Origin: Nitrospirota bacterium
Lineage (GTDB): Bacteria; Nitrospirota; Nitrospiria; Nitrospirales; Nitrospiraceae
Length of the DNA: 64,000 nt
Direction: 5' to 3'
NCBI GenBank assembly: GCA_016219645.1
Contig: JACRLR010000016.1
Span: 434,001-498,000 of the forward strand
Position numbers and translations under genes: made by a program. Under the pieces are notes generated by a model. It was not told the origin of the DNA. It saw nothing but the letters and a program-made list of their open reading frames with translations, and did no database searches. Shown here piece after piece: positions 4,762-22,726 of the stretch; within the stretch, counting starts at the first letter, position 1, and each line of letters starts with the position of its first letter.

Positions 4762-7700
4762 ATGATTATACACAAGGTACGGGGTTGCGTGCTTACCCGA
4801 ATGCTCGGCGCAATAGCGGCGATAGCCCTCATCGGGGTCCCGCTCGCATCAGCTGAGAATTCCTCACAGCCTGGCCAGCCGTCGTCGCCGCATGTCGCGA
4901 TGAACCATCAGCTGCCAGGTTGGGCTGAGAAACTCAAAGGCCAGACGATCGTCGAAGATGCGATGGGCGGCAAGCCCACACGTGCTGCGATGGTTGAACA
5001 GCAGCATCAGCGGATCATGGAGCATATGGCCCAGGATCCCCAAATGCAGGGTGTCAACACGGGGATGTACAACACCTCCTCCATGATGCATCAATATGGA
5101 GCAGGTGGACAGGACATGCTCCTCGTATCCGATCCTCGAGTGGAGCCGGTGGCGATGACCGGTGGCGGGAAATGTCCTGCCACGGCTCCGGTGAAGCAGT
5201 ACAATATCTCCACGATCAACGTCGAAATTACTCTCAATCAGTGGCTCGACTTCTATCCAGGCTACATGTATGTGCTGGACGAGGATCTCGATAAGGTGCG
5301 CGCCGAAGAAGCCAAGAACAAGGAAGCCCGAGAGAAGGACGGGTTCGATCCTGGTGCCGTGATTCCAGGCGTGCAGGCTCAGTGGATTCAGCCCCTCGTA
5401 TTCCGCGGGAACCAGGGCGATTGCATCAAGATAAAGCTCTCGAACAAGCTGGAAGAGGGAAGTGGGCCGGTCAGTCTGCATATCCATGGATCGAGTATGG
5501 TTGTGAGTGCCACCGGAGCTGCGGCGACGACAACCAACCCCGATTCAGTCGTCGAAGAGAAGAAGACCGGCGAGTTCGAGTGGTATCTCCACCCGAACAT
5601 CCAGGAAGGTGTCCGCCAATTTCATACCTATGCCCAAGATCGTGAGTTGACGGTGATGGGTTTGTTCGGCGCGTTCGTCGTCGAGCCTCGCGGATCGAGT
5701 TATCTGGAGCCGCTTGGCGCAGGGGATCCCACGCCGGCCTCCAGCGGTTGGCAAACAATCATTAAGAACGGGACCGGCCCTGATTTCCGCGAGTTTGTGC
5801 TGATCTATCATGAAATCGGCGACGAGGCCTTCCGCCCGCTCAATAAGAAGGGTGACTTCCTGCCCCAGCGCGATCCGTTGACCGATACCTATCGTCCAGG
5901 TGGCCGTGCAATCAACTATCGCAGCGAGCCGTTCGGCATCAACAACATGCACCTGCAGCACGAATATTTCGGGTTCGAAGACGAGTCGATGGGCTACAGT
6001 TCTTATACGTTCGGCGATCCCTCCCCGACGATTCCTCGTTCCTACATTGGCGATCCGGCCAAGTTCCGTTTGGTGCACGGTGGTTCGGAAGTCTTTCATT
6101 CGCATCATCCACACGGTGGCACTATCCGGTGGCCGCGCAGCCCGCGGGCGATCGACGACATGAACCTCTGGGCAACCGCAGGGAACGGGCCGGTCAAGTA
6201 TCCGGTGATTCGTGCCAAGACAGACCGGGTTGACGTTGAGGTCATCGGGCCTTCCGAAGCGCTCGACCTCGAGACCGAGTGCGGCTCAGGCCTTTGCCAG
6301 CAGCTGGCTGGCGACTTCCTCTTTCATTGCCATGTGGCCCACCATTATGTGTCAGGGATGTGGGGCTATTGGCGTGTCTACAACACCATCCAACAGGGAG
6401 ACCTGCGGAACGACGTGATGCCGGATCTGCGCGAGTTGCCGGATCGCAAGGGCCGGATCAGGACTCCCATCTCGTCGGACAAGCTTATCGGTCAGACGGT
6501 CGATTGGTTCGGTAAGGCATTTAGAATCATCGACAAAGGCAAGAGCAACTGGGCCACGAACCCTGCCGTCATCACGATCAAGGATTGGGTAGAGATGCAG
6601 ATGCCGACGATGGGCAAGCCTGGTCACAAAGACGATGAGAAGGGTCAGCTCGTGTCCTACGATGCCACGGTCCTGGACTGGGCCTGGGAAGGCAATCGTG
6701 CCATGAGTGAGAAGGAGAGCACGACCGACAATCCCAAGTATAAGTCTACTCATCCAGGTAAGCGGCATCCGATCATGTTTGAGCCGTTGACCGGCAAGGT
6801 GGCCTGGCCGCATCTCACGCCACATTTCGGCAAGCGGGTGATGTTCTCTCCGAATCACTCGGGTGCGCCGTGGCTGGAGATGATCCGTCGAGAAGTGAAT
6901 GGTGATGAGAGCATTGATCAGGCGAAGCCCGGTGAGAACGGCGTCTGGAGCCTCTGTCCGGAGAATGCAGGACGGAAGGATTACAATGTTCACTTTATCA
7001 AGCTGCCGATCAAGATTGCCAAGGCTCAGGGTAAGGAGCCCCCGGTGATCGATCCGAACGGACTGATTTACGTGCTCCATGAAGAAGAGGCGGCCATCCG
7101 GGCTAACGACGATCTCAAGTATCCGTTGGTCGTGCGGGGAAACATCTACGACTGCGTCGATTGGACCCTGACTAGTGAATGGGACGACGACGATTTCACG
7201 AACTTCCAGTCGTCGAAGATCAACACGCACTGGCATTTCCTCCAGTTCGATAACCAAGCGTCAGACGGGGTGATCACCGGCTTCTCCTACGAACAGTCGG
7301 TTCGCCCGTTCACAATGCTGGAGAAGAAGAACAAGAAAGGATTGCCTCTTCCGATGAACACGGTGCTGACTGCGCCTGTGAAAAAAGGCGCAGCCTCGAT
7401 CACCGTCAAGAATGCAGGCCAGTACCATGTCGGTACCCTGATCTTGGTGGGCGCCGATAATGTCAAGGGTAATGAAATCGCCCGGATCAAGAGTATCAAG
7501 GGTAGTACGATCGCCTTGACAAAGGGACTGAAGAACGATCACCCGGCGAACGACATCGTGACGGTTGAGTTTGTTCGGCAGCGTTTCTGGGTCGATGCGG
7601 ACGTGGGCACCGTGTTCTGGCATGACCACGCATTCGGCGCGACCACCTGGCCGCATGGCGGGTTCGGAACCTTTATTGCTGAACCGGTAGGATCAACCTA

Positions 7701-9627
7701 TCACGATCCGAAGACCGGGAAGCCGATCCGTAGCGGACCAATCGCAGACATTCGCACAGTCGAGCCGGTCGGCTATGGGGTGAACAACAGTTTCCGTGAG
7801 TTGATGGTGCAGGTACACGATACTGTGCCGCACACCGTCAACATCGTAACTGCGGGCAATCCGCCTGGGCAGCCGATAGAAGTGGCGCTTGAGGCAGGTA
7901 AGACTGTGTCGTTCATGATGCCGGAGAAGATTTATATGACCCCGATGCCGTTCCTGAACGGCGGGACCCATACGACCGGCAGCGGGTTGAACTTCAGGGC
8001 CGGTCCGATCGCCCAACGATTGGCGACCAATCCAGACGTATCACAGGCGTTCAATAGCCAGATCCATGGTGATCCCTACACCCCTCTCCTGAGGGCGTAT
8101 GTCGGAGATACGATGGTGTTTCGGTTGTTGCATACATTGATGAACGAGACGATGACCTGGACCCTTGCCGGCCATACATTCTTGAGCGAGCGGTATGCCG
8201 GCGATGCGAACCGGAAGAATTCGATGCATGTCGGGATCGCAGAGCGGTACGACCTCGTGGTGCCGCAAGCCGGGGGACCGAGGTTGCAAGCAGGTGACTA
8301 TATCCACTTCAATGGACGGTCGTCGAAGCTTTCTGAAGGCGCCTGGGGCATTCTCCGTGTCTATGACAAGGAGCAGGCTGATTTGAAGAAGCTCCCGGCC
8401 GGTTTCTCCAACAAGGGGGAAATTCCTAAGGCGCTGCCGGTCTGCCCTGCAGACGCGCCAGTGAAGACCTTCAACGTCGTGGCCTTGGATTATCCAGCCA
8501 TGAAGTTCAACGCGAAGGCCCCGGATGCCATTGAGGTGGACTTCGAGCGGACGATCCAAATCAGTAATCCTGAAGCGAAGATCTATGCCTTGGAGGAGGA
8601 CACGGCAAAAGTGGCCAGCGGTGCGCATCCGATGCCTCTTACGCTTCGCGTGAATATCGGCGATTGCGTCAAGGTCAATCTGAAAAACAAGATGAAGGAG
8701 GGTAAGGCCTCTTTCTCCGCGATCGGGCTGGCCTTCGATCCCAAGGATTCCATGGGTGCCAACGTCGGTAACAACCAGGGCGATCAGACGATCGCACCTG
8801 GTGCCGAGCGAACCTATACCTACTACGCGGATCCATTCAATGGTGAGACCACGTCGTTGGTGTGGGATTGGGGTAATGTAATGACGAATCCACGCAACGG
8901 GCTGTTCGGAGCCGTGGTGGTCGGTCCGAAGGGATCCAAGTATCGGGACCCGAAAACCGGTGCAGATCTCACGAACAAGAATGCCTGGGCCGCCGATGTG
9001 ATCATCGATCGTTCGGTCCCCGGTAACGAGATGCGGGCTAATTATCGCGACGTGGCGTTGTTCTTCCAAGACGAAGACAACATTATCGGCACGAGTTTTA
9101 TGCCCTATGTGCAAAACGTGGCGGGTCTGACAGGTGTCAACTATCGGTCGGAGCCGTATAAGTATCGCGAAGAGCAGGGATGCTCGCTGGGCAAGATGTT
9201 CCAGCCTTGCAAGGTTGGCAAGCCGGAGGACCCATCGACACCCGTGATTGAAGCGCACTCGGGGGACCCGGTGCGGATTCATGTGATCGGGGCGAGCAAT
9301 GAGCAGAACGGGATGTTCAGCGTTGAAAAGCATGAGTGGCCGATCGAGCCCTTCATGCGCGGCGCGGATCTCATCAGCGTGGTCGAGTTTGCCGGTTCGG
9401 AAGTGCTCGATGCGTTTCTGCCGTCGGCCGGAGGACCCTATCGTTTGCCCGGCGACTATGTGTACAGCAACCAGCGGTTGCCGTACTCCCAGTCTGGGCA
9501 ATGGGGCTATGTCCGCGTGTTGCCGTCAGGCGATACACGGCTGCTGCCTCTCACCGGCGCAGGTGCCAGCATGAAGAGTGCATCGGTTGAGCCACCAGTA
9601 CAGGTCATTCCGGTCGCAGCGAAGTAA
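4762..9627 (+). CDS. Giant periplasmic multicopper oxidase 1
   Basis: The product (1621 aa) starts at ATG 4762, seven bases after AAGGAGG, and has a signal peptide (MIIHKVRGCVLTRMLGAIAA, cleavage near ASAEN). It is built of several cupredoxin-type domains. All four multicopper-oxidase ligand motifs are present but in unusual order: H446-x2-H449-x-H451 (in FHSHHPHGG, type L3), H522-C523-H524 to M533 (HCHVAHHYVSGM, type L4), then H823-x-H825 (NTHWHF, type L1) and H954-x-H956 (WHDHAF, type L2). An extra H240-x-H242 (LHIHGSS) lies near the N-terminus, and a beta-rich insert of about 90 residues sits between L1 and L2. The family couples four one-electron substrate oxidations to reduction of O2 to water. 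Length and permuted motif order recall MofA-type proteins linked to Mn(II) oxidation, but the substrate is not shown. A cupredoxin gene follows after a terminator. Confidence 0.88.
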   Translation: MIIHKVRGCVLTRMLGAIAAIALIGVPLASAENSSQPGQPSSPHVAMNHQLPGWAEKLKGQTIVEDAMGGKPTRAAMVEQQHQRIMEHMAQDPQMQGVNTGMYNTSSMMHQYGAGGQDMLLVSDPRVEPVAMTGGGKCPATAPVKQYNISTINVEITLNQWLDFYPGYMYVLDEDLDKVRAEEAKNKEAREKDGFDPGAVIPGVQAQWIQPLVFRGNQGDCIKIKLSNKLEEGSGPVSLHIHGSSMVVSATGAAATTTNPDSVVEEKKTGEFEWYLHPNIQEGVRQFHTYAQDRELTVMGLFGAFVVEPRGSSYLEPLGAGDPTPASSGWQTIIKNGTGPDFREFVLIYHEIGDEAFRPLNKKGDFLPQRDPLTDTYRPGGRAINYRSEPFGINNMHLQHEYFGFEDESMGYSSYTFGDPSPTIPRSYIGDPAKFRLVHGGSEVFHSHHPHGGTIRWPRSPRAIDDMNLWATAGNGPVKYPVIRAKTDRVDVEVIGPSEALDLETECGSGLCQQLAGDFLFHCHVAHHYVSGMWGYWRVYNTIQQGDLRNDVMPDLRELPDRKGRIRTPISSDKLIGQTVDWFGKAFRIIDKGKSNWATNPAVITIKDWVEMQMPTMGKPGHKDDEKGQLVSYDATVLDWAWEGNRAMSEKESTTDNPKYKSTHPGKRHPIMFEPLTGKVAWPHLTPHFGKRVMFSPNHSGAPWLEMIRREVNGDESIDQAKPGENGVWSLCPENAGRKDYNVHFIKLPIKIAKAQGKEPPVIDPNGLIYVLHEEEAAIRANDDLKYPLVVRGNIYDCVDWTLTSEWDDDDFTNFQSSKINTHWHFLQFDNQASDGVITGFSYEQSVRPFTMLEKKNKKGLPLPMNTVLTAPVKKGAASITVKNAGQYHVGTLILVGADNVKGNEIARIKSIKGSTIALTKGLKNDHPANDIVTVEFVRQRFWVDADVGTVFWHDHAFGATTWPHGGFGTFIAEPVGSTYHDPKTGKPIRSGPIADIRTVEPVGYGVNNSFRELMVQVHDTVPHTVNIVTAGNPPGQPIEVALEAGKTVSFMMPEKIYMTPMPFLNGGTHTTGSGLNFRAGPIAQRLATNPDVSQAFNSQIHGDPYTPLLRAYVGDTMVFRLLHTLMNETMTWTLAGHTFLSERYAGDANRKNSMHVGIAERYDLVVPQAGGPRLQAGDYIHFNGRSSKLSEGAWGILRVYDKEQADLKKLPAGFSNKGEIPKALPVCPADAPVKTFNVVALDYPAMKFNAKAPDAIEVDFERTIQISNPEAKIYALEEDTAKVASGAHPMPLTLRVNIGDCVKVNLKNKMKEGKASFSAIGLAFDPKDSMGANVGNNQGDQTIAPGAERTYTYYADPFNGETTSLVWDWGNVMTNPRNGLFGAVVVGPKGSKYRDPKTGADLTNKNAWAADVIIDRSVPGNEMRANYRDVALFFQDEDNIIGTSFMPYVQNVAGLTGVNYRSEPYKYREEQGCSLGKMFQPCKVGKPEDPSTPVIEAHSGDPVRIHVIGASNEQNGMFSVEKHEWPIEPFMRGADLISVVEFAGSEVLDAFLPSAGGPYRLPGDYVYSNQRLPYSQSGQWGYVRVLPSGDTRLLPLTGAGASMKSASVEPPVQVIPVAAK

Positions 9628-9658
9628 TCCTGCGTCGCGCAGGATGTAGCGAATCGGG

Positions 9659-9690
9659 AGAAGGGGGGGGCGTGGCTCCCCCCTTTTTCT
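9659..9690 (+). terminator. Rho-independent terminator after multicopper oxidase 1
   Basis: A G-run and a C-run flanking GCGTGGCT form a GC-rich hairpin followed directly by TTTTTCTTT, 30 bases after the stop codon. A second small inverted repeat, TCCTGCG/CGCAGGA, lies at 9628-9644. Confidence 0.75.
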
Positions 9691-9729
9691 TTGGCGCAGC
9701 TTTTTGATAGGGTGCTCGAAGATATAACA

Positions 9730-10656
9730 ATGAAAACCTGGATTAGAGATTTCACGGTAATGGCGGGCATGCTTGCGGCCATATCGGTCGGCGCGGAATC
9801 GTCATCGGCTTACGACGTCATGGATGTTCAGCACGGAGGGACAGTCCAGGGGACGGTGAGGCTCGATGGCGACGTGCCGGAACCCAAAGGCTTCAACCTC
9901 ATTACGTTTCCCGATCCAGCTTATTGCGGCCGGATTTCCAATGGACGAGGTTGGCGACTCCTTCATGATTTTGTGGTGAATCAGCGGGGTGGGTTGAAAG
10001 ATGCCATTGTGTTGCTGGAAGGTGTGAAGGCCGGCAAACCGTTCGAGCTCTCAGTCCCCCTGATTGAAGCGCGGGATTGTCAATTTTCTCCCTTCATAAC
10101 CATCGTTCGGAACGGCCACGCTGTGGAAGTCGTCAATATGGATCCGGTGATGCACGATATCCAAGGCTATGAGACTTCGATCGAAGCCGGCGCCCGTGTG
10201 TTATTCAACACGCCCTTGGTCATGAATCATCAGCACCGCCGCGGCGACATCCATGCGATGCACAACCATGCACCGGGTAAGTCGTTGGTCGGGCCGCTGT
10301 ATTTGAACAGAGGGCGGCGGACGTTCTATATGCAATGCGGCTTCCACGCCTACATGGAAAGTTGGGCCATGGCCGTCAATAATCCCTACTACACACTGAC
10401 CGATGAGAGCGGGGCGTTTTCTATCGAGAACATCCCTCCTGGCACCTATCAGTTAGTGGTGTGGCATCCTCAGACCGGCCCGGGCCTCACCAAGATTGTT
10501 ACAGTCCAGCCGGAAGGTAAACTGGTCGAGCAGCTTTCCCTCCTCGCTCCGAAAGGAAACCGTTCTGCCTACAAGGTGATGGACAATCCCCGCTTCGGTC
10601 CGGAAACGCTGGGGTACGCAGTCGATATTCAGCCGCTCGTCGAGCATCAGCACTGA
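9730..10656 (+). CDS. Periplasmic cupredoxin with carboxypeptidase-regulatory-like domain
   Basis: The protein (308 aa from ATG 9730) has a signal peptide ending near SSAYD. A TTG further upstream would extend it into the terminator and is rejected. The middle part is cupredoxin-like with plausible type-1 copper ligands H142 (PVMHDIQ) and C203, H206, M209 (MQCGFHAYM), the plastocyanin spacing C-x2-H-x2-M. The C-terminal part (about 225-275, with IPPGTYQLVVWHP) is a carboxypeptidase-regulatory-like beta-sandwich. Databases often label such proteins methylamine-utilisation related. A role as copper electron carrier for the preceding multicopper oxidase is inferred from position; a close paralogue follows the second oxidase at 21772-22701. 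It lies behind a terminator, so it needs read-through or its own promoter. No strong Shine-Dalgarno sequence is visible. Confidence 0.75.
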   Translation: MKTWIRDFTVMAGMLAAISVGAESSSAYDVMDVQHGGTVQGTVRLDGDVPEPKGFNLITFPDPAYCGRISNGRGWRLLHDFVVNQRGGLKDAIVLLEGVKAGKPFELSVPLIEARDCQFSPFITIVRNGHAVEVVNMDPVMHDIQGYETSIEAGARVLFNTPLVMNHQHRRGDIHAMHNHAPGKSLVGPLYLNRGRRTFYMQCGFHAYMESWAMAVNNPYYTLTDESGAFSIENIPPGTYQLVVWHPQTGPGLTKIVTVQPEGKLVEQLSLLAPKGNRSAYKVMDNPRFGPETLGYAVDIQPLVEHQH

Positions 10657-10720
10657 ACGCTCATGTCCATTATATATACCGTGGGTCAGAAGGCCTGCAG
10701 ATGGGGGCTCCGCCTCTAGT

Positions 10721-11129
10721 TTGCCCTGTGGGCTGGATTGGGAGGGATGCCGTATAGATGTGGCAGCTGATGATAGAGCTGTTCCCTCTACAGAATTTTC
10801 CGGCTCACTCGTGAAGACCGTCAAGGGACGGCACTATCACGCGCAGGTATTTGTGAAGGGGGACCGATTCCTGATTTGGGGATGCGATGGCAGCTGGTCG
10901 TACAGCTCAGCTCTTCGAAGCCCACACAGACCATCGGAGTCGAAACGAACGATTCTATGAATGGGTGGATCAGGACACGGGAGTGGTCTTGAAACTCGTC
11001 AGCCTGGATCGGGAGTGGGCATTTGAGTATGAGCGGTTCAGACTGTCGCCTCAGCCTGCCTCGTATTTCGAAGAGCCACGGGGATACCACAAGCGTCTAT
11101 CGACATCTAAGCCGCCAGGGCAGGGATAG
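10721..11129 (+). pseudogene. Decayed copy of the DUF4412/LolA-like gene
   Basis: Two overlapping plus-strand frames each match part of the intact protein at 12702-13304. The first (10721-10960) carries VKTVKGRHYHAQVFVKGDRF, matching VTKIDGRIHKANIYYRDQMW. The second frame (10887-11129) carries FYEWVDQDTGVVLKLVSLD and FEYERFRL, matching YYQWIATDIHFPMKLARKD and VEYQHVKL. About 60 residues that separate these segments in the intact protein are missing, and the reading frame changes near 10,880-10,910. The signal peptide is not recognisable. It is therefore a deleted and frameshifted relic of a duplicate. A sequencing error could explain the frameshift but not the deletion. Confidence 0.65.
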
Positions 11130-11137
11130 GAAGAGCG

Positions 11138-12517
11138 ATGCGTGAACTGTTCATGCGCAGTCGGTCTTATCGCTGGAGTTTTCCGGCTGCAGTTGCATGC
11201 TTCGTCCTGTTGGGTGGAGCGGATCAGTTGCTGTTCGCTGCGGGGGCCTCATCTGTTCCGAAAGAAATCCAGGAAGCGTTTGATACACAACAGTACGCAC
11301 AGGTGCTTGAGCGATTGGGCAAGTTGGGGAAGGAGCAGGGTATGGCTCCGGACCTTCACCGGCTGAAGATTCGCTCATTGCTCAAGCTCGGGAATCCCAA
11401 GGATGCGCTCGGTGAGTACGACAAACTGGAACGCTCACTCAAGCAAGATGATCTCCCCCTCCTTCGAGAGGTGGCATTGGGGTTCATCGTCGTATTGGTG
11501 AAGGACATGCGTGAACAAATGCGCGGAGCTGCCTACACGGCACTCAAGGAAGTAGACGGTGACGACATGATTCCCTATTTTGAAGATGGCTTGAGCGATG
11601 GGTCGGGGCCAGTCCGTGCGCTCGCCGTTGAAGGGCTCGGCCGATCAGAAATGGGAAGGAAGTCGGCAAGATTGCGTACAGCGATTGAGGATCAAGCAGG
11701 GTTGGTGAAGGCGCGCGTAGTGAAAACGCTCGGAAAAACTGGGGATCCAGGAGTGATGCCGTTAGTCGAGGCGGCGACAAAGGACGAACTCACCACGGTT
11801 CGTATCGCGGCGTACGGCGCACTGATCAGGCTTGGCAAGAAAGAGGTTTGGGCCGAACTGCAGAAGGCCGCTGCCTCGCTCAACCCAGAGGATCGCGCTG
11901 ATGCGATTCGCACGATGGCCGAGTTGAAAGACCATCGAGGCGCCCCCGTCATGATGGAGGCCTTGACTTACAAACAACCCTCCGTTCGTGGCGCTGCAGC
12001 CAGAGGGCTCGGGCATCTTGGATACACAGAGGCGAGAGGATCGATTGAGCAGTTATTGAAAGATCCTGTGCCCGCCGTTCGTGAGTCTGCGGTGACAGGG
12101 TTGGCGGAATTGGGAGGATCGGAATCGGTTTCCGCACTGAACAAGGCACTCAGCGATGGGAGCCATACCGTGCGCGCTTCGGCAGTTGCCGCGTTACTTC
12201 AACTCGGCCAGCCTTACTCAACGGTGGCCGCTACGGCGCAATCGCTGGCGCAACAAAACGATATGGCTATGCGTGCGTCTGTAGCCTATGCCCTTGGGAA
12301 GGCGACGGGAGCCAATACGCCTGGGGCGGTGTCCCTCTTAACCAGCTTGACAGCGGATCCGCTTCCCGGTCCAAAAATTGTAGCCCTTCGATCCCTCGGG
12401 CATGTGGGGGATCGTGAGCTTCTTCCCCTCCTGAAGGACGCGCTCCACGATGCGAATGATGCCGTGCGGGCCACCGCGGCAGGGGCACTGCTGCATCTCG
12501 TTCAACAGAAAAAATAG
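11138..12517 (+). CDS. Exported HEAT-repeat protein
   Basis: The 459-residue protein starts at ATG 11138 after AGGAAGAG. It has an N-terminal hydrophobic segment (about residues 14-34, ending LLFAAGAS) that looks like a signal peptide. Residues 40-100 are tetratricopeptide-like (AFDTQQYAQVLERLGKLG, then LLKLGNPKDALGEYDKLE). From about 125 to the end there are tandem HEAT/PBS-lyase-type helical pairs such as VRALAVEGLGR, VRGAAARGLGHLG and VRASAVAALLQLG. HEAT solenoids are scaffolds; no catalytic residues are visible. It lies between copper proteins, so it may be an assembly or docking factor for this periplasmic module, but that is inference. It is not strictly coupled to its neighbours: about 185 bases separate it from the next start. 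Confidence 0.75.
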   Translation: MRELFMRSRSYRWSFPAAVACFVLLGGADQLLFAAGASSVPKEIQEAFDTQQYAQVLERLGKLGKEQGMAPDLHRLKIRSLLKLGNPKDALGEYDKLERSLKQDDLPLLREVALGFIVVLVKDMREQMRGAAYTALKEVDGDDMIPYFEDGLSDGSGPVRALAVEGLGRSEMGRKSARLRTAIEDQAGLVKARVVKTLGKTGDPGVMPLVEAATKDELTTVRIAAYGALIRLGKKEVWAELQKAAASLNPEDRADAIRTMAELKDHRGAPVMMEALTYKQPSVRGAAARGLGHLGYTEARGSIEQLLKDPVPAVRESAVTGLAELGGSESVSALNKALSDGSHTVRASAVAALLQLGQPYSTVAATAQSLAQQNDMAMRASVAYALGKATGANTPGAVSLLTSLTADPLPGPKIVALRSLGHVGDRELLPLLKDALHDANDAVRATAAGALLHLVQQKK

Positions 12518-12701
12518 CCCTGCCTTAGCGGGCATTCGACAACAGGAGCGGCGCATAGGGGACTTCTATATCTTCTCGCAAGATGATAGAGGGGAACGGG
12601 TTACGGCGAGAGAGAGCATGCGCCCAACATACATAATGGAATGTCTCTCTGGCTTTAGGACAGAGGAAAGCCGGCATGGCGTTATGGTAGGATTTCCCGC
12701 C

Positions 12702-13304
12702 ATGCGTCAGACCGGTCTCGTGTTCTGGGTTGCGTGCTGCCTGCTGTTTACTGCCTTGCCGGCCTGGGCGTTGGAGTTTACTGCCGATCAAGTGACGAAG
12801 ATCGATGGCCGCATCCACAAGGCCAACATTTATTATCGCGATCAGATGTGGCGTATCGAGCACCATTCATCGGGCCCAGTCAATGTCAGTATCGTTCGGA
12901 AGGACAAGCAGGTCGTGTGGTTACTGCTCTCGCGGATGAAGCACTTCAAAACGATGCCCTATAGTCCGGAGCACGATCTCAGGGTGAGTGAAAAGCTGGA
13001 CGGAGAAGTGTCGAGGCAGGAGATTGGAACAGAAGTGCGTGAAGGCCATCCGACGATTCTCTACGAAGTCGCGACGAAGCAAGGGGAACAGGTCGAGGAG
13101 TACTACCAGTGGATCGCGACGGATATCCATTTCCCGATGAAGTTGGCGAGGAAAGATGGGAGTTGGATCGTGGAGTACCAGCATGTGAAGCTGCGGTCGG
13201 TTTCAGACTATCTCTTCAACCTGCCGGTCAACTTTCAGCCGTTGGAAGACTTCAAAAAACAAGAAGAGCCGGAGCCCGCCGGGCCCGGGCTGTCACGTAA
13301 CTAA
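12702..13304 (+). CDS. Periplasmic DUF4412/LolA-like protein
   Basis: I place the start at ATG 12702 (200 aa) because it gives a clean signal peptide (MRQTGLVFWVACCLLFTALP, cleavage near AWALE) and follows TAGGA at a workable distance. The mature part is a beta-rich single domain (ADQVTKIDGRIHKANIYYRD, later YYQWIATDIHFPMKL) resembling DUF4412 or the LolA/outer-membrane lipoprotein-sorting fold. Such domains bind hydrophobic ligands or partner proteins in the periplasm; no catalytic motif is seen. Its stop codon is 12 bases before the start of the SUMF1 gene, which uses AAGGAGG, so the two form a translational unit. A frame-shifted relic of a second copy sits at 10721-11129. Exact function is unknown. 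Confidence 0.6.
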   Translation: MRQTGLVFWVACCLLFTALPAWALEFTADQVTKIDGRIHKANIYYRDQMWRIEHHSSGPVNVSIVRKDKQVVWLLLSRMKHFKTMPYSPEHDLRVSEKLDGEVSRQEIGTEVREGHPTILYEVATKQGEQVEEYYQWIATDIHFPMKLARKDGSWIVEYQHVKLRSVSDYLFNLPVNFQPLEDFKKQEEPEPAGPGLSRN

Positions 13305-13316
13305 GGAGGCTGGATT

Positions 13317-14231
13317 GTGAAAGTGCTCGGAATCATCGCGGGCGTTGTGGTAACGGGATTGATGGTCATAGGCGGCGCGGTTCACGCATTGGACGTGGCT
13401 GACGTCGTCCGGGAATGGACCCCTGAAGGGAAGAAACTTGCCGCCGAAAGGGTGAAACTGCCGGCTCACGACGAGATGGTCCTTATTCCGGCCGGTTCGT
13501 TCACCATGGGGAGCGACAGGAAGATAGACCGCAATGCCTATCCCGCAGAGTTTCCCCAACGGAAGGTCTATCTGGACGCCTACGAGATCGACAAATTCGA
13601 AGTGACCACCGTGCAATTTCTGAAGTTCATCCTCGCGAAGGATCTGCCGCCCCTCATCGACTGGCAGTATGACGGTGGTAATTTCCAGGAGACCATGGTC
13701 AATCATCCTGTGATGCACGTGTCGTGGGCCGATGCCGATGCCTACTGCGCGTGGGCGGGCAAACGGCTTCCGACCGAAGCTGAGTGGGAGAAGGCGGCGC
13801 GTGGGGAAGATGGGCGGATTTATCCCTGGGGCAATCAGCCGGCAGGCCTCTCGCGTTCGAACTTCGGCCGGACCGGTTTGTCTGGTCCGGTACGCGATCG
13901 TCCCGAACGGCTCTTGCTCTATCCACCGATCATTTCTGTGGATAAATACGACAACGCGGTGAGTCCATTCGGCTTGTTCCAGATGGCGGGTAACGTGGCC
14001 GAATGGGTGGCCGACTGGTATGACCCCAAGTACTACGCAACCGCGCCGGATAAGAATCCCAAGGGGCCGGAGCAGGGAACGCAGCGGAGCTTCCGTGGCG
14101 GTGGTTGGATCGACAGCACGCCGAGTGTGCGGACCGCTCAACGGAACGGGACTGATCCCAGTACCAAGATGAACTGGATGGGTTTCCGCTGCGCGCGGGA
14201 TGTGAAAGACGCAACGGGTTTGCAAGGCTGA
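13317..14231 (+). CDS. SUMF1/FGE-fold periplasmic protein 1
   Basis: The 304-residue protein uses a GTG start seven bases after AAGGAGG and has a signal peptide (to about residue 25, VHALDVA). The rest is a complete formylglycine-generating-enzyme (SUMF1) fold: IPAGSFTMGSD, the GKRLPTEAEWEKAARG core, PWGN, GNVAEWVADW, RGGGWID and the terminal GFRCARD. The cysteine pair of true FGE, just before GFRC, is absent here (the segment reads RNGTDPSTKMNWM), so sulfatase maturation is unlikely. Related cysteine-less members such as NirV are found beside copper nitrite reductases, so copper-enzyme maturation or assembly is plausible but unproven. It closely resembles the product of 23797-24771, including GRTGLSGPVRDRPERLLLYP, so the two are probably recent duplicates. 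Confidence 0.85.
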   Translation: MKVLGIIAGVVVTGLMVIGGAVHALDVADVVREWTPEGKKLAAERVKLPAHDEMVLIPAGSFTMGSDRKIDRNAYPAEFPQRKVYLDAYEIDKFEVTTVQFLKFILAKDLPPLIDWQYDGGNFQETMVNHPVMHVSWADADAYCAWAGKRLPTEAEWEKAARGEDGRIYPWGNQPAGLSRSNFGRTGLSGPVRDRPERLLLYPPIISVDKYDNAVSPFGLFQMAGNVAEWVADWYDPKYYATAPDKNPKGPEQGTQRSFRGGGWIDSTPSVRTAQRNGTDPSTKMNWMGFRCARDVKDATGLQG

Positions 14232-14258
14232 AACGCTGTACCAGGAGGATTCATCTTC

Positions 14259-14924
14259 ATGCCCGGCCACGTCACACAATTGACTCGAACCAAGCCTGTG
14301 CCTTGCCTCATCGCCGGACCCCTGCTTGCGTTGGCTCTCATGAGCCTCATCCCGGCCTCGCTCTCCGGGGCACAAGGAGGCAAGACGGAAGTGTTCCCGG
14401 TGCAGAAAGCTGCGCCGGCAGCGGTCTTTATCGAGGCACCGGGAAGCGAAACCGATTTGCGGCGTCAATTGCGGACCAAAAACGGGGTATCTCAACTCAG
14501 TTCCTCTACCTCGGTGATCCGCTTCTCGGTCGCACCGACAGGAAGCTTTGGATTTATTCCTCCCAAACTTCTGGGAATGGCCTTGATCACGCAAAGCCCG
14601 GATCTCCCCATCGAACAGGTACCGCCCATCTCCAATGCGTTTGAGATTCATAAACTTGCCGATGGAAGTGGGATGCTGGTGGGATTTGTGGAGGCAAGCC
14701 TGAAGCCTCTATTGACGGCTAGTGAGCGGCCAAAGAATGTCAGACTTGAACTTTATTCCAGTCCCTCAGACAAGGCGCCGCACATCGTTGCGGTGCCTTT
14801 GGTCAAACTGGTTGTCGATCGGATGCCGATCCGGCTCAATCCGAAAGACCCAGGCAGCGCTGTTCTGCTCGATATGGATTTGCAGGGCACTGCCAATCGA
14901 ACTTCGTCTCAAACTGGCCCCTAG
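14259..14924 (+). CDS. Exported protein of unknown function
   Basis: This 221-residue protein follows the SUMF1 gene by 27 bases, with AGGAGG about ten bases before its ATG. A hydrophobic stretch at about residues 17-38 looks like a signal peptide or anchor. The mature part has short beta-prone segments (RLELYSSPSDKAPHIVAVPL, LDMDLQG) but no motif I recognise and no cysteines outside the signal region. Position suggests that it is the last gene of the run beginning at 12702 and belongs to the multicopper oxidase region. No function can be assigned. Confidence 0.55.
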   Translation: MPGHVTQLTRTKPVPCLIAGPLLALALMSLIPASLSGAQGGKTEVFPVQKAAPAAVFIEAPGSETDLRRQLRTKNGVSQLSSSTSVIRFSVAPTGSFGFIPPKLLGMALITQSPDLPIEQVPPISNAFEIHKLADGSGMLVGFVEASLKPLLTASERPKNVRLELYSSPSDKAPHIVAVPLVKLVVDRMPIRLNPKDPGSAVLLDMDLQGTANRTSSQTGP

Positions 14925-15566
14925 CGGGATGCGTGGGAAAAATTGCTCTCGCGAAATTGGAACGATTCTTCGGTGAGGCCAAATCAAGCCGCGTGGAGGA
15001 AATTGAGACTAAGTTACTCGAGAGATCCTATGATGAGGACATGGTTTCCCGTGGTCTAATCCTGCCGGCTATCCATAGGCTTCTGCTTCATTTCCTTGTT
15101 CCTAATCTTCCGATCTGCCCATTTTTGCCCCAGATTCCAATAAAAATCGTCCAAGAAATTAGACAGTCTATCCGATTGAAATTCCAGCACTGATTATTTT
15201 ATGCTGCTCATGACTGTCTAGTTTTGTGGAAATATACTCATCGCACGTCTATCGGTTTCATCCGGCTCTCGATCGCAAATTGCTAGGACTGATGCGGGGC
15301 AACCAGCGATTCCTTTCGGTATCTGGACCTGGGCATGTAAGTTGCGGAGGCGTATGATCGCTGGTGAAGGTCTGGGTGATTAGGACCGGCCTCCGAATGA
15401 CCCTCTCCTCCGCAAGGAGGAAGCCTTCACCAGCTCTTAACACAGAGTGCTGATTTGGTCATTGAAGAGTGCTTTGTTGAGAAGGGCCGGTTGAGATATC
15501 CGGGAGCCAACCACTCAGTGAATAAAATAAATGGTCTGTTCAATCCTTAAAAAGGGAGGCCGAGAT
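14925..15566. other. Long leader region before multicopper oxidase 2
   Basis: These 642 bases hold no convincing gene; an 86-codon frame at 14933-15193 has no family likeness. A possible sigma-70-like promoter, TTGAAA (15176-15181), 18 bases, TATGCT (15200-15205), would give a leader of about 360 bases. That leader contains the structured element at 15299-15436 (listed separately). The ribosome binding site GGGAGG lies at 15554-15559. Confidence 0.5.
15299..15436 (+). promoter_or_regulatory. Candidate structured RNA leader of multicopper oxidase 2
   Basis: Two long helices that share bases can be drawn. ACCAGCGAT (15302-15310) pairs perfectly with ATCGCTGGT (15357-15365). GCTGGTGAAGG (15360-15370) pairs perfectly with CCTTCACCAGC (15424-15434). 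Within the second helix CTCCTCC and GGAGGAAG close a GCAA tetraloop, and CGGAGGC (from 15346) can pair with GCCTCCG (15390-15396). The two main helices exclude each other, the arrangement expected of a switching leader. I do not recognise a known riboswitch class, and a non-regulatory palindromic repeat is an alternative. Confidence 0.35.
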
Positions 15567-18500
15567 ATGAGATCTTTTCTGGTTCACCCACGACGTCAGC
15601 GGCGGCGCAGCAGCCTGTCGCTGATCTTGCTGAGTGTCTTATTGGCGGGCAGCTTGGTCGTGACACCATGGCTGTTTGCCGCAAGTCAAGGTGAGTCGTC
15701 GCATGAAGGCCATGCGACACCAGTCGCACTGCCAGGCTGGACGCAGCAATTGAAGGGGCAGACCATCCTGGAGGATACGATCGAAGGGCGGCCTGACCGT
15801 TCGGGAAAAATGGAGGTGCAGCACCATCGCCTGATGGAGAAGCTCGAACAGCAGGCCCAGAAGGATGCCAAGGCGCAGCAGACATCTGGAGCGTTCAACG
15901 AGATGTCGATGATGCATCAATACATGGGCCAGGATGGCAGCAGCTTCCTGCTCATGTCGGATGGGTCCAAAGGCGAGCCTGTGATGACTTCCGGGGGGAA
16001 GTGCCCAGCCGGTGTGCCGGTTAAGCAATACGATGTTTCGATGATCAATATCGAGATCACGCTGAACCGCTGGCTCGATTTCTATCCCGGTTATATGTAT
16101 GCGTTGACCCAGGATCTCGACAAGGTCCGCAGTGAGGAGGCGAAGAACAGGGAGGCTCGCGAAAAGGACGGCTTCGATCCAGGGGCGGTGACCACGGGAT
16201 TGCAGGGCGACATGATTCAACCCTTGGTGCTGCGCGCCAACCAGGGCGATTGTGTGAAAATGACGCTTCGCAACCAGATGGAGAGCGAGGACGGCAGCCT
16301 GTTTATCAGCGCCTCCAGCATGATCGTGAGTGCCACAGGCAAGCCGGCCACGACGACGAACCCCGAGTCCATTGTGGCTCCGGGTAAGGCGCAGGAGTTC
16401 GAGTGGTACATCCACCCGCAGATGCAGGAGGGGGTCCGTCAGTTTCACTCCTACAGTCATGACCGTGAGCTGACCGTGTTGGGTCTCTTCGGTGCCTTCA
16501 TCGTAGAGCCAAAGGGCTCGAAGTATCTCAATGCACTCGGAAGTGGAGGCCCGGCGCCGGAGGCCAAGACCGGCTGGGAAGTAAATATTGATAACGGGTC
16601 AGGACCGGACTTCCGCGAATTCGTGCTCTTCTATCATGAGATCGGTGACGAAGCCTTCCGTCCGCTGAATAAGAAGGGCGATTTCTTACCCCAGCGCGAT
16701 CCGTTGACAGATGCCTATCGCCCCGGTGGCCGGGCGATCAACTATCGTAGCGAGCCATTCGGAATCGATCAGATGCACCTGCAGCATGAGTATTTCGGGT
16801 TTGAAGACGAATCGATGGCCTATAGCTCCTATACATTCGGCGATACTCCGACCACGATAGCCCGTGGTTATTTGGGCGATCCGGTCAAGTGGCGGCTGGT
16901 TCATGGCGGATCCGAAGTGTTCCACTCCCACCACCCTCATAGCGGTACGATCCGTTGGCAGAGGAGCCCACGCGCCGATCAGGAAGAACATTGGTATAAG
17001 GGGCAGGATGGGCCGGTAAAGTATCCGGTTGTCCGGACGAAGTCAGATCGCGTAGACGTGGAAGTGATCGGTCCGTCAGAAGCCTTGGATCTCGAACCGG
17101 AATGCGGCGGCGGGGGATGCCAACATTTAGCGGGGGAATTCCTGTATCACTGCCATGTTGCGCACCACTATGTGGCGGGCATGTGGGGGTATGGCCGGTT
17201 CTACAATACACTCCAAGTGGGTGCCGCACACACCGATAGCATGCCTGACCTTAGGGAGTTGCCGGATCGTCAGGGCCGGATGAAGCAGGGAGTCTCATCC
17301 GACAAGCTGATCGGGACGACGGTGGATTGGTTCGGGAAGGTCTTTAAGATTGTCGATAAGAGTCAGAAGACCAATTGGAAGTCCGATCCCGTCATCGTGA
17401 ACATCAAGGATTGGGTCGAGATGTTTGTCCCGGCACAGGGGCAACCAGGTCACACGAACGATGAAAAGGGCCAGATCCTGGCCTACGATTCGACCGTGTG
17501 GGACTGGAAGTGGGATGGCAATATTGCCAGGGGTGAGCGGGAAAGTACCGCACAGAATCCAAAGTACCAATGGGCGGCTAAGTGGGATGATAGTACCAGA
17601 CCTGCAATCCTGTTCGATGCGACGACAGGCAAGATGGCCTGGCCGCTCTTTAGGCCGCACTTCGGCAAGCGGGTGCCGTTCTCGGCCAATCATAACGGCG
17701 CTCCCTGGCTAGAACCGATTCACCAGGACGCCAATGGTGAACGGACATCAGAGCCGGCCATGCCGGGCGAGCAGGGCCGATGGAGTCTCTGTCCCGACAA
17801 TGCCAACAAGAAGCATTACAACATCCACTTCGTCCGCATGCCGATCACCCTGGCGAAGGCGCAGGGGAAAGAGCCGGCCATGGTCGACAAGGATGGCTTG
17901 ATCTACGTGCTTCACGAAGAAGAACGGTTGACCAGGGGGAACGACGATCTCAAGTTGCCCGCGGTCATCCGCGCCAACGTGTATGACTGTGTGGATCTGT
18001 TGCTGACCAGCGAATGGGACGACGACGATTACACGAATTTCCAGTCGTCCAAGATCAACATTCATCCCCACTTCTTCCAGTTCGACACGGGGAATTCGGA
18101 CGGCGTGATCTCAGGGTTTGAGTATGAAATGTCGGTCCGGCCGTTCACCATGTGGGGAAAGAAGACCAAACACGGGTTGCCGGCCCCGATGGTCGCGAAG
18201 CTCGTAAGCGGTGCGAAGGCGGGCGCTGCGTCCATCAAGATTCAGATGGCGCCGGGTGCCACGCCGTTCCATGTCAATACTGAAGTGATGGTCGGCATGG
18301 ATTGTTTGGAGAAGGGCAACGATTCGACGGCTTCATTGCCGCGCGACAAGAGCTGCCAGGAAGTGGCTCGTATCAAGGAGATCAAGGGCGATCAGGTCAC
18401 CTTCTTCAAGCCATTGAAGAACAATCACCCGGCGGGGGATCTGGTATCCCCGGAATTCGTCCGCTATCGGTGGTGGGTGGATGTGGATATGGGGACGGTG

Positions 18501-20510
18501 TTCTGGCACGACCATGCATTCGGCGCGACGACCTGGCCGCATGGGGGGTTCGGCGTGACGATCGTGGAACCTTTCGGGTCCACCTATCACGATCCGAAGA
18601 ACGGCAAGTTGGTGTACAGCGGTCCCATCGCTGACATTCACAGCAATGAGCCGATCGGGGCCGGCGTGAGCGGGAGTTTCCGTGAATTAATGGTGTCGAT
18701 CCACGACACCGTTCCGCATACGGTGAACACCATTGAGGCGGGAAACCCGCCTGGGCAGCCCATCGAAGTGGCATTGGAAGCCGGTAAGACCGTGTCCTTC
18801 CAAATGCCGGAAAAGATCCTGGCGGCGCCGAACAAGTATATTAACGGCGGGACGCACACGACCGGCAGCGGCTTCAATTTCCGCGCGGCGCCGTTTGCAC
18901 AGCGCCTGTCCAACAATCCGGATACGTCGAAGTTGTTCAGCAGCGCGATCCATGGCGATCCTGGTACGCCGCTCTTGCGTGCCTACACAGGGGACACTAT
19001 GGTGTTTCGTCTGTTGCATCAGCTGATGAACGAATCCCATGTCTGGACCATTTCAGGCCATACCTTCCTGACGGAACGGTATGCGGCAGATGCCAATCGG
19101 AAGAACTCGATTCACGTCGGGATCGCCGAGCGGTATGACCTCGTCAGCAAAGCCGGAGGATTCCAGGGCATGCCGGGCGACTACATCCACTTCAACGGAC
19201 GAACGTCGCACTTCGCCGAAGGGGGATGGGGTATCATCCGCGTGCTCGACAAGGAAACGGCGGATCTGAAACCGCTGCCCAAGGGGACCAATCCTCTGGG
19301 GATTCCTGCGACACCGAGTTCCGTCTGTCCGTCAGATGCTCCGGTGAAGAACTTCAACGTTGTGTCGTTGGACCGTCCGATGAAGCTCCATCCGAAGGCA
19401 CCGGATGTGATCGAGGTGGACTTTGAGCGCAAGATCGAAATGACGATGCCGGAAGGGAAGATCTACGCGCTTGCAGAGGAAGCGACCACGGTAGCGGGCA
19501 ATGTGATGCCGAATCCGCTCACGTTGCGCGCCAATCTAGGCGATTGCATCAAGGTCAATTTGAAGAACAAGATGAAGGCGAGCCGGGCATCCTTCTTTGC
19601 ACCGGGCCTGGCCTTCGATCCAAAAGATAGCCAGGGCCTGAATGTCGGGAACAATCCGGGCGATCAGACGATTGCGCCAGGCGAAAGCCGCACATACACC
19701 TACTACGCCCATCCGGCGAACAAGGAGACGACGTCGCTGGTGTGGGACGGTGGGAACGTGGTTGTTAATCCACGGAACGGATTGTACGGTGCGGTCATCA
19801 TCGGCCCGAAGGGTTCCCAGTATCGGGACCCTGTCACAGGGGCCGATATCTCACAGAAGAACTCATGGCGCGCCGACGTGATCGTCGATGCCAGCTTGCC
19901 GGAGAACGTCGGGAAGCGGAACTACCGAGATGTGGCCCTCTTCTTCCAGGATGAGGACAACATCATCGGGACCGCATTCATGCCCTATGTGCAAAATGTG
20001 GCTGGGCTCACGTCGGTCAATTACCGTGCGGAACCATACAAGTTCCGTGAGGAGCAGGGCTGCTCGCTGGGCAAGATCTTCCAGCCCTGCGTGGTGGACA
20101 AGCCTGAAGACCCGGTTACGCCTCTGATCGAGGCGCATGCCGGTGACCCGATCCGTATCCACGTGATCGGCGCCAACAGTGAACAGAACGGGATGTTCGG
20201 GGTTGAAGGTCATGAGTGGCCGATCGAGCCCTACATGCCGGGTGCTGACCAGATCAGTGTGGTGGAGTATGCCGGATCCGAGATCCTTGATGTCTTCATC
20301 CGTGGCGGCGCGGGCGGCCCGTATCGTCAGGTGGGAGACTTCGTGTGGTCCAATGCGCGGCTGCCCTACACGCAGTCAGGACAATGGGGCTACCTCCGTG
20401 TGTTGCCGGTCGGCGATTCACGAATCCAACCGCTGGGGACCCAGGGAACGGGCGCCAAGCGAGTGGAGCTGAAACCGGAGCCCCAAGCGATTCCGACGGC
20501 GATGAAGTAG
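15567..20510 (+). CDS. Giant periplasmic multicopper oxidase 2
   Basis: The product (1647 aa) starts at ATG 15567 after GGGAGG and has a signal peptide (hydrophobic run about residues 17-37, ending LFAASQG). It is a close full-length paralogue of the oxidase at 4762-9627, with long nearly identical stretches (such as FRPLNKKGDFLPQRDPLTD). The four copper motifs are again in permuted order: H453/H456/H458 (FHSHHPHSG), H528-C529-H530 (HCHVAHHYVAGM), H833-x-H835 (IHPHFF) and H981-x-H983 (WHDHAF). The N-terminal H-x-H of the first paralogue is replaced here (LFISASS), so that extra site is lost. The insert between L1 and L2 carries two cysteines (GMDCLEKG, DKSCQEV) that the first paralogue lacks. 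It probably oxidises a small substrate with O2 in the periplasm; the substrate is unknown. Confidence 0.88.
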   Translation: MRSFLVHPRRQRRRSSLSLILLSVLLAGSLVVTPWLFAASQGESSHEGHATPVALPGWTQQLKGQTILEDTIEGRPDRSGKMEVQHHRLMEKLEQQAQKDAKAQQTSGAFNEMSMMHQYMGQDGSSFLLMSDGSKGEPVMTSGGKCPAGVPVKQYDVSMINIEITLNRWLDFYPGYMYALTQDLDKVRSEEAKNREAREKDGFDPGAVTTGLQGDMIQPLVLRANQGDCVKMTLRNQMESEDGSLFISASSMIVSATGKPATTTNPESIVAPGKAQEFEWYIHPQMQEGVRQFHSYSHDRELTVLGLFGAFIVEPKGSKYLNALGSGGPAPEAKTGWEVNIDNGSGPDFREFVLFYHEIGDEAFRPLNKKGDFLPQRDPLTDAYRPGGRAINYRSEPFGIDQMHLQHEYFGFEDESMAYSSYTFGDTPTTIARGYLGDPVKWRLVHGGSEVFHSHHPHSGTIRWQRSPRADQEEHWYKGQDGPVKYPVVRTKSDRVDVEVIGPSEALDLEPECGGGGCQHLAGEFLYHCHVAHHYVAGMWGYGRFYNTLQVGAAHTDSMPDLRELPDRQGRMKQGVSSDKLIGTTVDWFGKVFKIVDKSQKTNWKSDPVIVNIKDWVEMFVPAQGQPGHTNDEKGQILAYDSTVWDWKWDGNIARGERESTAQNPKYQWAAKWDDSTRPAILFDATTGKMAWPLFRPHFGKRVPFSANHNGAPWLEPIHQDANGERTSEPAMPGEQGRWSLCPDNANKKHYNIHFVRMPITLAKAQGKEPAMVDKDGLIYVLHEEERLTRGNDDLKLPAVIRANVYDCVDLLLTSEWDDDDYTNFQSSKINIHPHFFQFDTGNSDGVISGFEYEMSVRPFTMWGKKTKHGLPAPMVAKLVSGAKAGAASIKIQMAPGATPFHVNTEVMVGMDCLEKGNDSTASLPRDKSCQEVARIKEIKGDQVTFFKPLKNNHPAGDLVSPEFVRYRWWVDVDMGTVFWHDHAFGATTWPHGGFGVTIVEPFGSTYHDPKNGKLVYSGPIADIHSNEPIGAGVSGSFRELMVSIHDTVPHTVNTIEAGNPPGQPIEVALEAGKTVSFQMPEKILAAPNKYINGGTHTTGSGFNFRAAPFAQRLSNNPDTSKLFSSAIHGDPGTPLLRAYTGDTMVFRLLHQLMNESHVWTISGHTFLTERYAADANRKNSIHVGIAERYDLVSKAGGFQGMPGDYIHFNGRTSHFAEGGWGIIRVLDKETADLKPLPKGTNPLGIPATPSSVCPSDAPVKNFNVVSLDRPMKLHPKAPDVIEVDFERKIEMTMPEGKIYALAEEATTVAGNVMPNPLTLRANLGDCIKVNLKNKMKASRASFFAPGLAFDPKDSQGLNVGNNPGDQTIAPGESRTYTYYAHPANKETTSLVWDGGNVVVNPRNGLYGAVIIGPKGSQYRDPVTGADISQKNSWRADVIVDASLPENVGKRNYRDVALFFQDEDNIIGTAFMPYVQNVAGLTSVNYRAEPYKFREEQGCSLGKIFQPCVVDKPEDPVTPLIEAHAGDPIRIHVIGANSEQNGMFGVEGHEWPIEPYMPGADQISVVEYAGSEILDVFIRGGAGGPYRQVGDFVWSNARLPYTQSGQWGYLRVLPVGDSRIQPLGTQGTGAKRVELKPEPQAIPTAMK

Positions 20511-20516
20511 TGAGCT

Positions 20517-20719
20517 GGGGAGGTGCGGGATGCTGTTCGCTCCCGCGCCTCCCGGATCGACCCTTCCGGACTCAGCCGAGCGGAAGCCTTCTGGAATTCT
20601 CTCGGCCCTGGTCTTCGACCATGGTGCCTCGGTCAGTTCCAGTTTTCCTTCTCGGCTGAATCGCGGTGGGGCCCCGCTCCTCCGGCGCAGGTCGCGAAGC
20701 AGCATTCCGCACCTCCCCT
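20517..20719. repeat. Dispersed palindromic repeat, copy 1
   Basis: The ends form a near-perfect inverted repeat: GGGGAGGTGCGGGATGCTGT at the left and the matching GCAGCATTCCGCACCTCCCC at the right. The interior, read on the minus strand, matches the element at 59330-59515: shared blocks include CGCCGGAGGA, GAAGGCTTCCGC and CCGGGAGGCG in the same order and similar spacing. It is non-coding or at most degenerate coding, and looks like a miniature element. Confidence 0.6.
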
Positions 20720-20757
20720 GTGGAGTGTGAGCGGAAAAAGACAAGAGTCGTGATCGC

Positions 20758-20796
20758 AAGGGGGATCTGCGCGTGATGCGTGGCTCCCCCTTCGTG
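20758..20796 (+). terminator. Terminator downstream of multicopper oxidase 2
   Basis: AAGGGGG and CCCCCTT flank a loop containing GCGTGATGCGTGGCT. The loop end and stem resemble the terminator after multicopper oxidase 1. The T-tract is weak (TTCGTGTTATT), so efficiency is uncertain. Confidence 0.5.
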
Positions 20797-20968
20797 TTAT
20801 TGAAGTGCTGAGTGCCGAGATAAAACTGAATTCGAAAACTCAGCACCTAGCATTCAGAGGAGGCTGGAGGGGAAAATGGCACTGATACACAATTTGTGGC
20901 GGGACTTCGGCATTCCTCATCATGTCCCAGTCTCCCGGTCTGATACGGCACTATCGAAGGGAGGGGTC

Positions 20969-21553
20969 ATGTCATCTCGTAAGTGGCTTGTAGGAGGATT
21001 GTGCGTTCCGCTGTGCGTGATACTGGGTTGGGGAGCCGGGTTTGCCGGCAAGGAGTCGGCCGGCAGTGTCCCGCTGGAAACGGTCGTGGATTATATCCAT
21101 TCAGTGCTGGAGGCTGACCGGACGTTTTATACCGTCCACGTTGTGGAGCGGATGCAGAGGAGAGGGGTGATCGAATCGTCGGAGCAGTGGCGTTCGGCGA
21201 ACGCACTCCCGCTTCCGGCCCAATTCTTTCAGGAGTCGTCGAGTCTGGCGGCGCTGACGGGAGCACAGGTGCAGTACCGGTTGATCAGCCTCCATCCCAT
21301 CAACAAACAAAGCGGGCCTCAAACAGAATTCGAGCGCAAGGCGCTTGAGGCGGTCATGGCGCATCCCGAGCAGCCGTATAAAGGCCTGGTCAGGGAGGGG
21401 GGCACTCGATACTTCCAAGCCGTGTATGCGGACCTAGCTGTCTCGCCCGTCTGTGTGAACTGTCATAACGCCGACGCGCGCAGTTCAAAGCATGACTACA
21501 AACTCCGCGATGTGCTGGGCGCGGTCCTGATCTCTATTCCGGCTCCTGAGTGA
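20969..21553 (+). CDS. Mono-heme Tll0287-like (DUF3365) cytochrome
   Basis: I take ATG 20969 (194 aa), eight bases after AAGGGAGGGG, because it opens a standard signal peptide (MSSRKWLVGG, hydrophobic to about residue 25). An in-frame ATG at 20876 also has a good ribosome site and would add 31 residues, so it remains possible. The domain is of the Tll0287-like type: EFERKALEAVMAHPE, then RYFQAVYADLAVSPVCVNCH with the c-heme motif C162-VNC-H166 near the C-terminus and a closing DVLGAVLISIP. Such domains are small periplasmic heme sensors or carriers. Position between multicopper oxidase 2 and its cupredoxin suggests an electron-transfer partner, which is inference. It follows a terminator, so it probably has its own promoter. 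Confidence 0.75.
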   Translation: MSSRKWLVGGLCVPLCVILGWGAGFAGKESAGSVPLETVVDYIHSVLEADRTFYTVHVVERMQRRGVIESSEQWRSANALPLPAQFFQESSSLAALTGAQVQYRLISLHPINKQSGPQTEFERKALEAVMAHPEQPYKGLVREGGTRYFQAVYADLAVSPVCVNCHNADARSSKHDYKLRDVLGAVLISIPAPE

Positions 21554-21771
21554 CTGGATTATTCCTCGCCGCCGTGCCGCGAGTGAGTCGTGGATATCTT
21601 CTGTGACCGTTGCGCCTCGTCTCAGAGGGGGAAGCTGTGTTATCCTGTGAACGAAATCGTCTCAACGCGAGGGAGAGGCTGGCTCGCTCCGGTGGTCGAT
21701 TGAGCAATTTCCATAGTCGAACATCTAGAGGACTCAGGCTGAGGTCCTGATTGAGAACGAGGAGGATCTAT

Positions 21772-22701: not shown

Positions 22702-22726
22702 ACACGGGCGTCTTTAAGCCAATCAG

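Follow-up and report, generated by a model that had tools for sequence, protein, structure and literature searches.

The window, the 64,000-nucleotide stretch of DNA analyzed here, encodes two giant multicopper oxidases (MCOs), designated MCO1 and MCO2. Both are of a known kind of enzyme, and the order of their copper-binding motifs and their occurrence as a giant pair are ordinary for their group and class. We lean toward a model in which they would be exported six-domain oxidases of the MnxG type, with Mn(II) as the favored substrate, a cupredoxin as partner, and a trinuclear copper site at the interface of domains 2 and 3 (D2 and D3). The part worth following is the conserved linkage between the MCO gene and the gene for this cupredoxin, of which we found no earlier description in the available portions of the literature. 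Manganese oxidation by ordinary Nitrospira is being actively debated (sand-filter study, PMC12070406), and this family with its linked cupredoxin offers a small testable set that consists of one enzyme, one partner, and a few candidate substrates.

Copper ligands and domain organization

As reported in the preliminary description, the plus strand of the window contains two giant open reading frames whose translations span 1621 and 1647 amino acids. MCO1 (4762-9627) lies in a frame that opens with GTG at 4729, MCO2 (15567-20510) lies in one that opens with ATG at 15531, and the two proteins are 67% identical. Inspection by eye revealed a Sec-type signal sequence at the N-terminus of each, and both proteins are predicted to be exported. 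Pfam multicopper-oxidase domains scored above curated cut-offs in both. In MCO1, motif and conservation locate L3 (HSHHPH; H446, H449, and H451) to residues 446-451 (6097-6114) and L4 (HCHVAHHYVSGM) to residues 522-533 (6325-6360) of D2, while L1 (HWH; H823 and H825) falls at residues 823-825 (7228-7236) and L2 (WHDH; H954 and H956) at residues 953-956 (7621-7629) of D3. The ligands of L4, which are H522, C523, H524, H528, and M533, include the type-1 cysteine, histidine, and axial methionine as judged by motif. The motifs of MCO2 occupy residues 453-458 (L3; H453, H456, and H458; 16923-16940), 528-539 (L4, HCHVAHHYVAGM; 17148-17183), 833-835 (L1; H833 and H835; 18063-18071), and 980-983 (L2, WHDH; H981 and H983; 18507-18515); like those of MCO1, they are read from the plus strand. 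Roles given by motif assign H446, C523, H528, and M533 of MCO1 to the type-1 set and eight histidines (H449, H451, H522, and H524 together with H823, H825, H954, and H956) to the trinuclear set.

Each MCO ligand is 99-100% conserved among 136 Nitrospirota sequences, and not one of 2000 shuffled versions of either protein contained the L4 motif. The shuffles and the conservation in the 136 homologues rule out chance or a frame artefact as the source of the motifs; the claim that both proteins carry all four MCO motifs stands.

The family alignment was cut into six candidate domains and a linker, which were compared as profiles. D1, D3, and D5 match one another (probability 98.6-99.7), as do D2, D4, and D6 (probability 96.9-99.6); no match between odd and even domains was obtained in this comparison of the six. 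Because odd domains match odd and even domains match even, the MCO chain consists of three tandem odd/even cupredoxin pairs, giving six domains. The positions of the ligands relative to the domain borders place L3, L4, and the type-1 site in D2 and place L1 and L2 in D3. The type-1 site is restricted to D2 and the trinuclear ligands to D2 and D3, which is the arrangement of bacterial six-domain enzymes. The HCH and HxxHxH positions have been lost from D4 and D6 of MCO1 and MCO2, as read from their translations. A trinuclear site at the D1/D6 boundary, as in ceruloplasmin, does not fit, since D6 is devoid of the L3/L4 histidines and the HxH of D1 is absent from MCO2. Likewise, neither protein has the layout of three-domain laccases, in which L1-L2 lie N-terminal to L3-L4.

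The order L3-L4-L1-L2, which the preliminary description had noted in both proteins and considered permuted, is confirmed; the same order occurs in the MnxG-type protein encoded by a Priestia megaterium plasmid (L3 at 280, L4 at 333, L1 at 528, and L2 at 573). The view that this order is unusual finds no support. Chordate six-domain proteins form their trinuclear site at the boundary of D1 and D6, whereas all bacterial six-domain MCOs analyzed, MnxG included, have it between D2 and D3 and carry the type-1 site in D2 (Vasin 2013, PMC3600357). Where the site is at D2/D3, the even-domain motifs L3 and L4 inevitably precede the odd-domain motifs L1 and L2. Thus, the published layout and the identical order in the Priestia protein indicate that the order is a trait of the group rather than a rearrangement in this genome. 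Ceruloplasmin and hephaestin resemble the present MCOs in having six cupredoxin domains and one trinuclear site (predicted here). Ceruloplasmin uses the equivalent D1/D6 interface (PMC3600357), whereas the site of MCO1 and MCO2 would be formed at D2/D3, from which the seemingly reversed order would follow.

Profile comparison delimited an insert of ~170 amino acids between D2 and D3 (residues 563-735 of MCO1; 6448-6966, plus strand) that shows no similarity to the six domains by the same method. The insert is present in 136 of 136 sequences, neighbors the presumed trinuclear interface along the chain, and contains two histidines, H688 and H699, that are invariant or nearly so; it is absent from the Priestia MnxG-type protein. 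An AlphaFold model of D1-D4 of MCO1 (1091 amino acids, 30 aligned sequences) has a mean pLDDT of 51.4, which is too poor for placing coppers.

Kinship to MnxG and candidate substrates

The nearest solved structure to the MCOs is that of MnxG from Bacillus sp. PL-12 (9bxa), which was the best match in a single-sequence search (E 1e-82) and again by profile (E 3e-155), where the alignment runs colinearly through D1-D2 and covers HxxHxH and HCH. These two matches and the shared motif order bear out the earlier suggestion that the proteins are MnxG-like. The low-confidence D1-D4 model also has 9bxa as its best fold match (colinear, Z 19.7), followed by factor V/ceruloplasmin (Z 12-13). The proteins also match the NCBIfam equivalog model for MnxG (NF041487; E 6e-43), but their scores of 146 and 112 bits fall far below the equivalog cut-off of 3100. 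That model is 1894 positions long, which is near the length of Pseudomonas-type MnxG (1941-1970 amino acids; PMC3600357), and the Priestia MnxG-like plasmid protein, which is of the Bacillus type, is also under the cut-off (353 bits). For these reasons, the missed cut-off seems to mean that MCO1 and MCO2 are not Pseudomonas-type MnxG rather than that they are not MnxG-like.

MnxG of Bacillus sp. PL-12, the Mn(II) oxidase of the Mnx complex, shares with MCO1 and MCO2 membership in the six-domain group, the placement of the type-1 site in D2 and of the trinuclear ligands in D2 and D3, and the order L3-L4-L1-L2. It differs in length (1217-1227 versus 1621-1647 amino acids), the longer pair having the D2-D3 insert and a wider L1-L2 spacing. 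MnxG has MnxE/F partners, whereas the MCO genes here have a downstream cupredoxin gene instead; no MnxE/MnxF homologue was detected in this genome when the pair of small genes that precede the Priestia MnxG-like gene served as queries, in a search run without a positive control. Leptothrix MofA, to which the preliminary description compared MCO1 and MCO2, is presumably similar to them in length. Leptothrix six-domain MCOs are listed at 1569-2016 amino acids (PMC3600357). A distant relative (33% over 90%) is encoded on a plasmid of the actinomycete Streptomyces sp. NBC_00335 (L160, 9308-14626), where it is annotated "hypothetical protein" and precedes a CopC-type gene.

In the favored model, the type-1 copper would reside in D2, bound by the four type-1 ligands named above, and the trinuclear cluster would be built from the four D2 histidines and the four D3 histidines of the trinuclear set. 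The type-1 copper would receive electrons one at a time from a reductant that is most likely a metal ion, Mn(II) being the best candidate, and the trinuclear cluster would carry out the four-electron reduction of O2 to water. The most likely electron-transfer partner of the MCO would be the small cupredoxin whose gene lies directly 3'. We infer the single trinuclear site, the reduction of O2, the Mn(II) substrate, and the direction in which electrons move to or from the cupredoxin.

Other metal substrates must be weighed. The MCOs may oxidize Cu(I) or Fe(II) for periplasmic metal homeostasis in the manner of CueO or a ferroxidase, with the cupredoxin serving as a copper carrier or minor partner. 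We judge this alternative fairly unlikely. Multicopper oxidases are promiscuous in substrate, as noted for nitrifiers (PMC11995701), Nitrospira depends on copper proteins (this genome has AMO), and the plasmid relatives from Streptomyces and Priestia (L161) are encoded beside or near copC-type genes. However, genes for copper export or of the CopC type are absent from the annotated neighbors in the window, the closest relative with a solved structure is the Mn oxidase MnxG, and CopA-type models match only weakly.

Distribution within Nitrospiria

In a sample of 295 Nitrospirota genomes, MCO matches were found in 121, of which 113 belong to the window's own class, Nitrospiria. Nearly all of these 113 gave very strong matches, and no genome of the class is among the matchless genomes listed, in an order of kinship that starts with other classes. 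The eight matching genomes from other classes gave weak matches (best E 2e-24). Among near relatives the MCO is present in 97 of 100, the three exceptions being incomplete assemblies, and all 15 sampled genomes from other orders of Nitrospiria carry a giant MCO. Named carriers include N. moscoviensis and Ca. N. defluvii, which are canonical nitrite oxidizers. Judged from these matches, the giant MCO appears to be standard equipment of the class Nitrospiria, carried by every sampled genome and usually as several paralogues. The class-wide survey, with the two nitrite oxidizers among the carriers, rejects the proposal that the pair marks a special metabolism of this genome, with an oxidation of its own.

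A FastTree phylogeny assigns MCO1 and MCO2 to two paralogue clades within Nitrospirales, together with an older third group at ~53% identity. Elsewhere in the window's genome, a 73-residue stretch (G000 C15:39222-39443, locus L003) is 58% identical to residues 1285-1357 of MCO1 and is possibly the remnant of a third MCO copy. The genome also contains an AmoA-family gene (G000 C44:57868-58569) and therefore most likely derives from a comammox (ammonia-oxidizing) Nitrospira.

A periplasmic MnxG-like MCO that is conserved, in the same gene neighborhood, in Nitrospina gracilis and Ca. N. defluvii was described previously (Lucker et al. 2013, PMC3578206), and MnxG-type genes have been noted in Nitrospira MAGs, for which Mn oxidation was suggested without proof (PMC12070406, PMC11995701). 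Unlike the present analysis, the available part of the first report (PMC3578206) contains neither a class-wide survey nor the cupredoxin linkage. It proposes for the enzyme of Nitrospina and N. defluvii a Mn(III)-based defense against reactive oxygen. Such a role would involve the same chemistry as the favored explanation, with which it is compatible, but the purpose of Mn(III) production would be protective; we regard this as a tentative possibility. The same text states that N. defluvii is without SOD and catalase, which accords with a protective function, yet N. moscoviensis has both SOD and catalase (PMC6606698) and carries the enzyme nonetheless.

The MCO is conserved in all Nitrospiria, most of which are not known to oxidize Mn, and this conservation does not point specifically to Mn(II) as the substrate. 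The Mn-lithotrophic Ca. Manganitrophaceae, which are placed in the same GTDB class, all share "two novel MCOs" (PMC9040806), and we infer that these are members of the present giant MCO family.

The downstream cupredoxin and the bd-like oxidase cluster

The first gene 3' of MCO1, cup1 (9691-10656, plus strand), encodes an exported protein with a predicted cupredoxin domain and a C-terminal CarboxypepD_reg-like domain. When same-strand genes within 900 bases were counted, this family provided the next downstream gene in 100 of the 119 MCO genes with enough flank, a count in which many loci come from related genomes and are not independent events; it lies upstream of the MCO in 2 of 102 genes. 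Recurrence in other orders is a stronger point than this count: the link between MCO and cupredoxin is kept in distant orders of Nitrospiria, where the cupredoxins are 30-40% identical. The 73% paralogue group of MCOs is mostly without a cupredoxin neighbor. The cupredoxin family is also wider than the MCO, with weaker matches in 41 genomes of other classes, mostly without an MCO match.

The model of cup1 has a pLDDT of 90.8, and its residues 84-192 resemble cupredoxins, plastocyanins and amicyanin among them, with Foldseek E values of 2e-5 to 1e-3 and Z values of ~10 against plastocyanin/amicyanin. Fold comparison recovered these cupredoxins, whereas a phmmer search with cup1 among solved structures returned none. 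The type-1 ligands of cup1 are H155, C216, H219, and M222; these residues and D151 are conserved at 98-99% among 200 sequences of the cupredoxin family. With the fold and the His, Cys, His, and Met ligands both in place, the cup1 family is predicted to be a type-1 cupredoxin.

MCO1 belongs to a conserved bd-like-oxidase cluster. Among the 32 MCO1-type loci that extend at least 9 kb further downstream, all have a HEAT-repeat gene after the MCO1-type gene, and 21 have a bd-like oxidase gene within 10 kb. N. moscoviensis and N. defluvii have a common order that comprises MCO1, cupredoxins, HEAT, cup3, a methyltransferase-like gene, three further genes, and bd-like genes. In the window, the plus-strand gene cup3 (28625-29419), which encodes a third cupredoxin-like protein (CDQHEFM), opens the conserved stretch toward the bd-like genes. 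These encode a bd-like oxidase subunit (33126-34997, plus strand), assigned by position relative to the published cluster (PMC6606698), and a second bd-like membrane protein (38631-40595, plus strand), assigned by size and position; NCBIfam provided no family name for the bd-like proteins. Also encoded on the plus strand is a diheme c/NXR-gamma-like protein (TIGR03477; 43130-44902) that matches the published alt_NxrC_2 (PMC6606698).

This setting bears on a further alternative, a respiratory side branch in which electrons of the nitrite/cytochrome c chain would reach the MCO through the cupredoxin, and the MCO would reduce O2 in the periplasm as an electron valve. A complete type-1 cupredoxin gene directly 3' of the MCO in most loci is consistent with such a branch, as is the location of MCO1-type genes in a cluster that also holds an NXR-gamma-like cytochrome (PMC6606698). 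We nevertheless consider it unlikely: periplasmic O2 reduction would conserve no energy, and gene linkage gives no direction of electron flow. To our knowledge, it would be unusual for a six-domain MCO to take electrons directly from a protein, which also counts against the side branch. The alternatives considered here differ from the favored explanation in substrate or role, and nothing in our data separates them. Returning to Mn(II) oxidation, one may speculate, at a probability we set very low, that MCO and cupredoxin form an electron-conserving metal-oxidizing module of Nitrospiria in which the type-1 copper would accept electrons from Mn(II) and the cupredoxin would pass part of them to the cytochrome c/bd-like chain instead of all going to O2. 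If true, Mn lithotrophy would thereby gain its missing periplasmic carrier, one that nitrite oxidizers would in principle have as well.

In the window, MCO2, its cupredoxin, and several FGE-fold genes are located between HEAT and cup3. This MCO2 module (12450-28274) contains FGE genes, a gene for a Tll0287-like monoheme c protein (CxxCH; 20876-21553, plus strand) between MCO2 and cup2, cup2 itself (21751-22701, plus strand), and a protease. The product of cup2 is a predicted cupredoxin and CarboxypepD_reg-like protein. In N. moscoviensis and N. defluvii the cluster runs from MCO1 to the bd-like genes without a break, and one further locus (L047) begins like the window. The MCO2 module is inserted into the MCO1-bd-like cluster of this probably comammox genome. 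MCO1 of the Ca. N. defluvii locus (L054) is 87% identical and lies in the bd-like neighborhood described in the available part of PMC3578206.

Seven proteins of the FGE/SUMF1 fold are encoded in 25 kb around the oxidases (13317-14231, 22819-23784, 23797-24771, 25986-26849 on the minus strand, 27360-28274, 36207-37130, and 37055-38026). They all seem to be without the catalytic cysteines of formylglycine-generating enzymes. The fold was identified by scanning the product of the gene at 13317 against Pfam, and the other six were assigned by sequence likeness.
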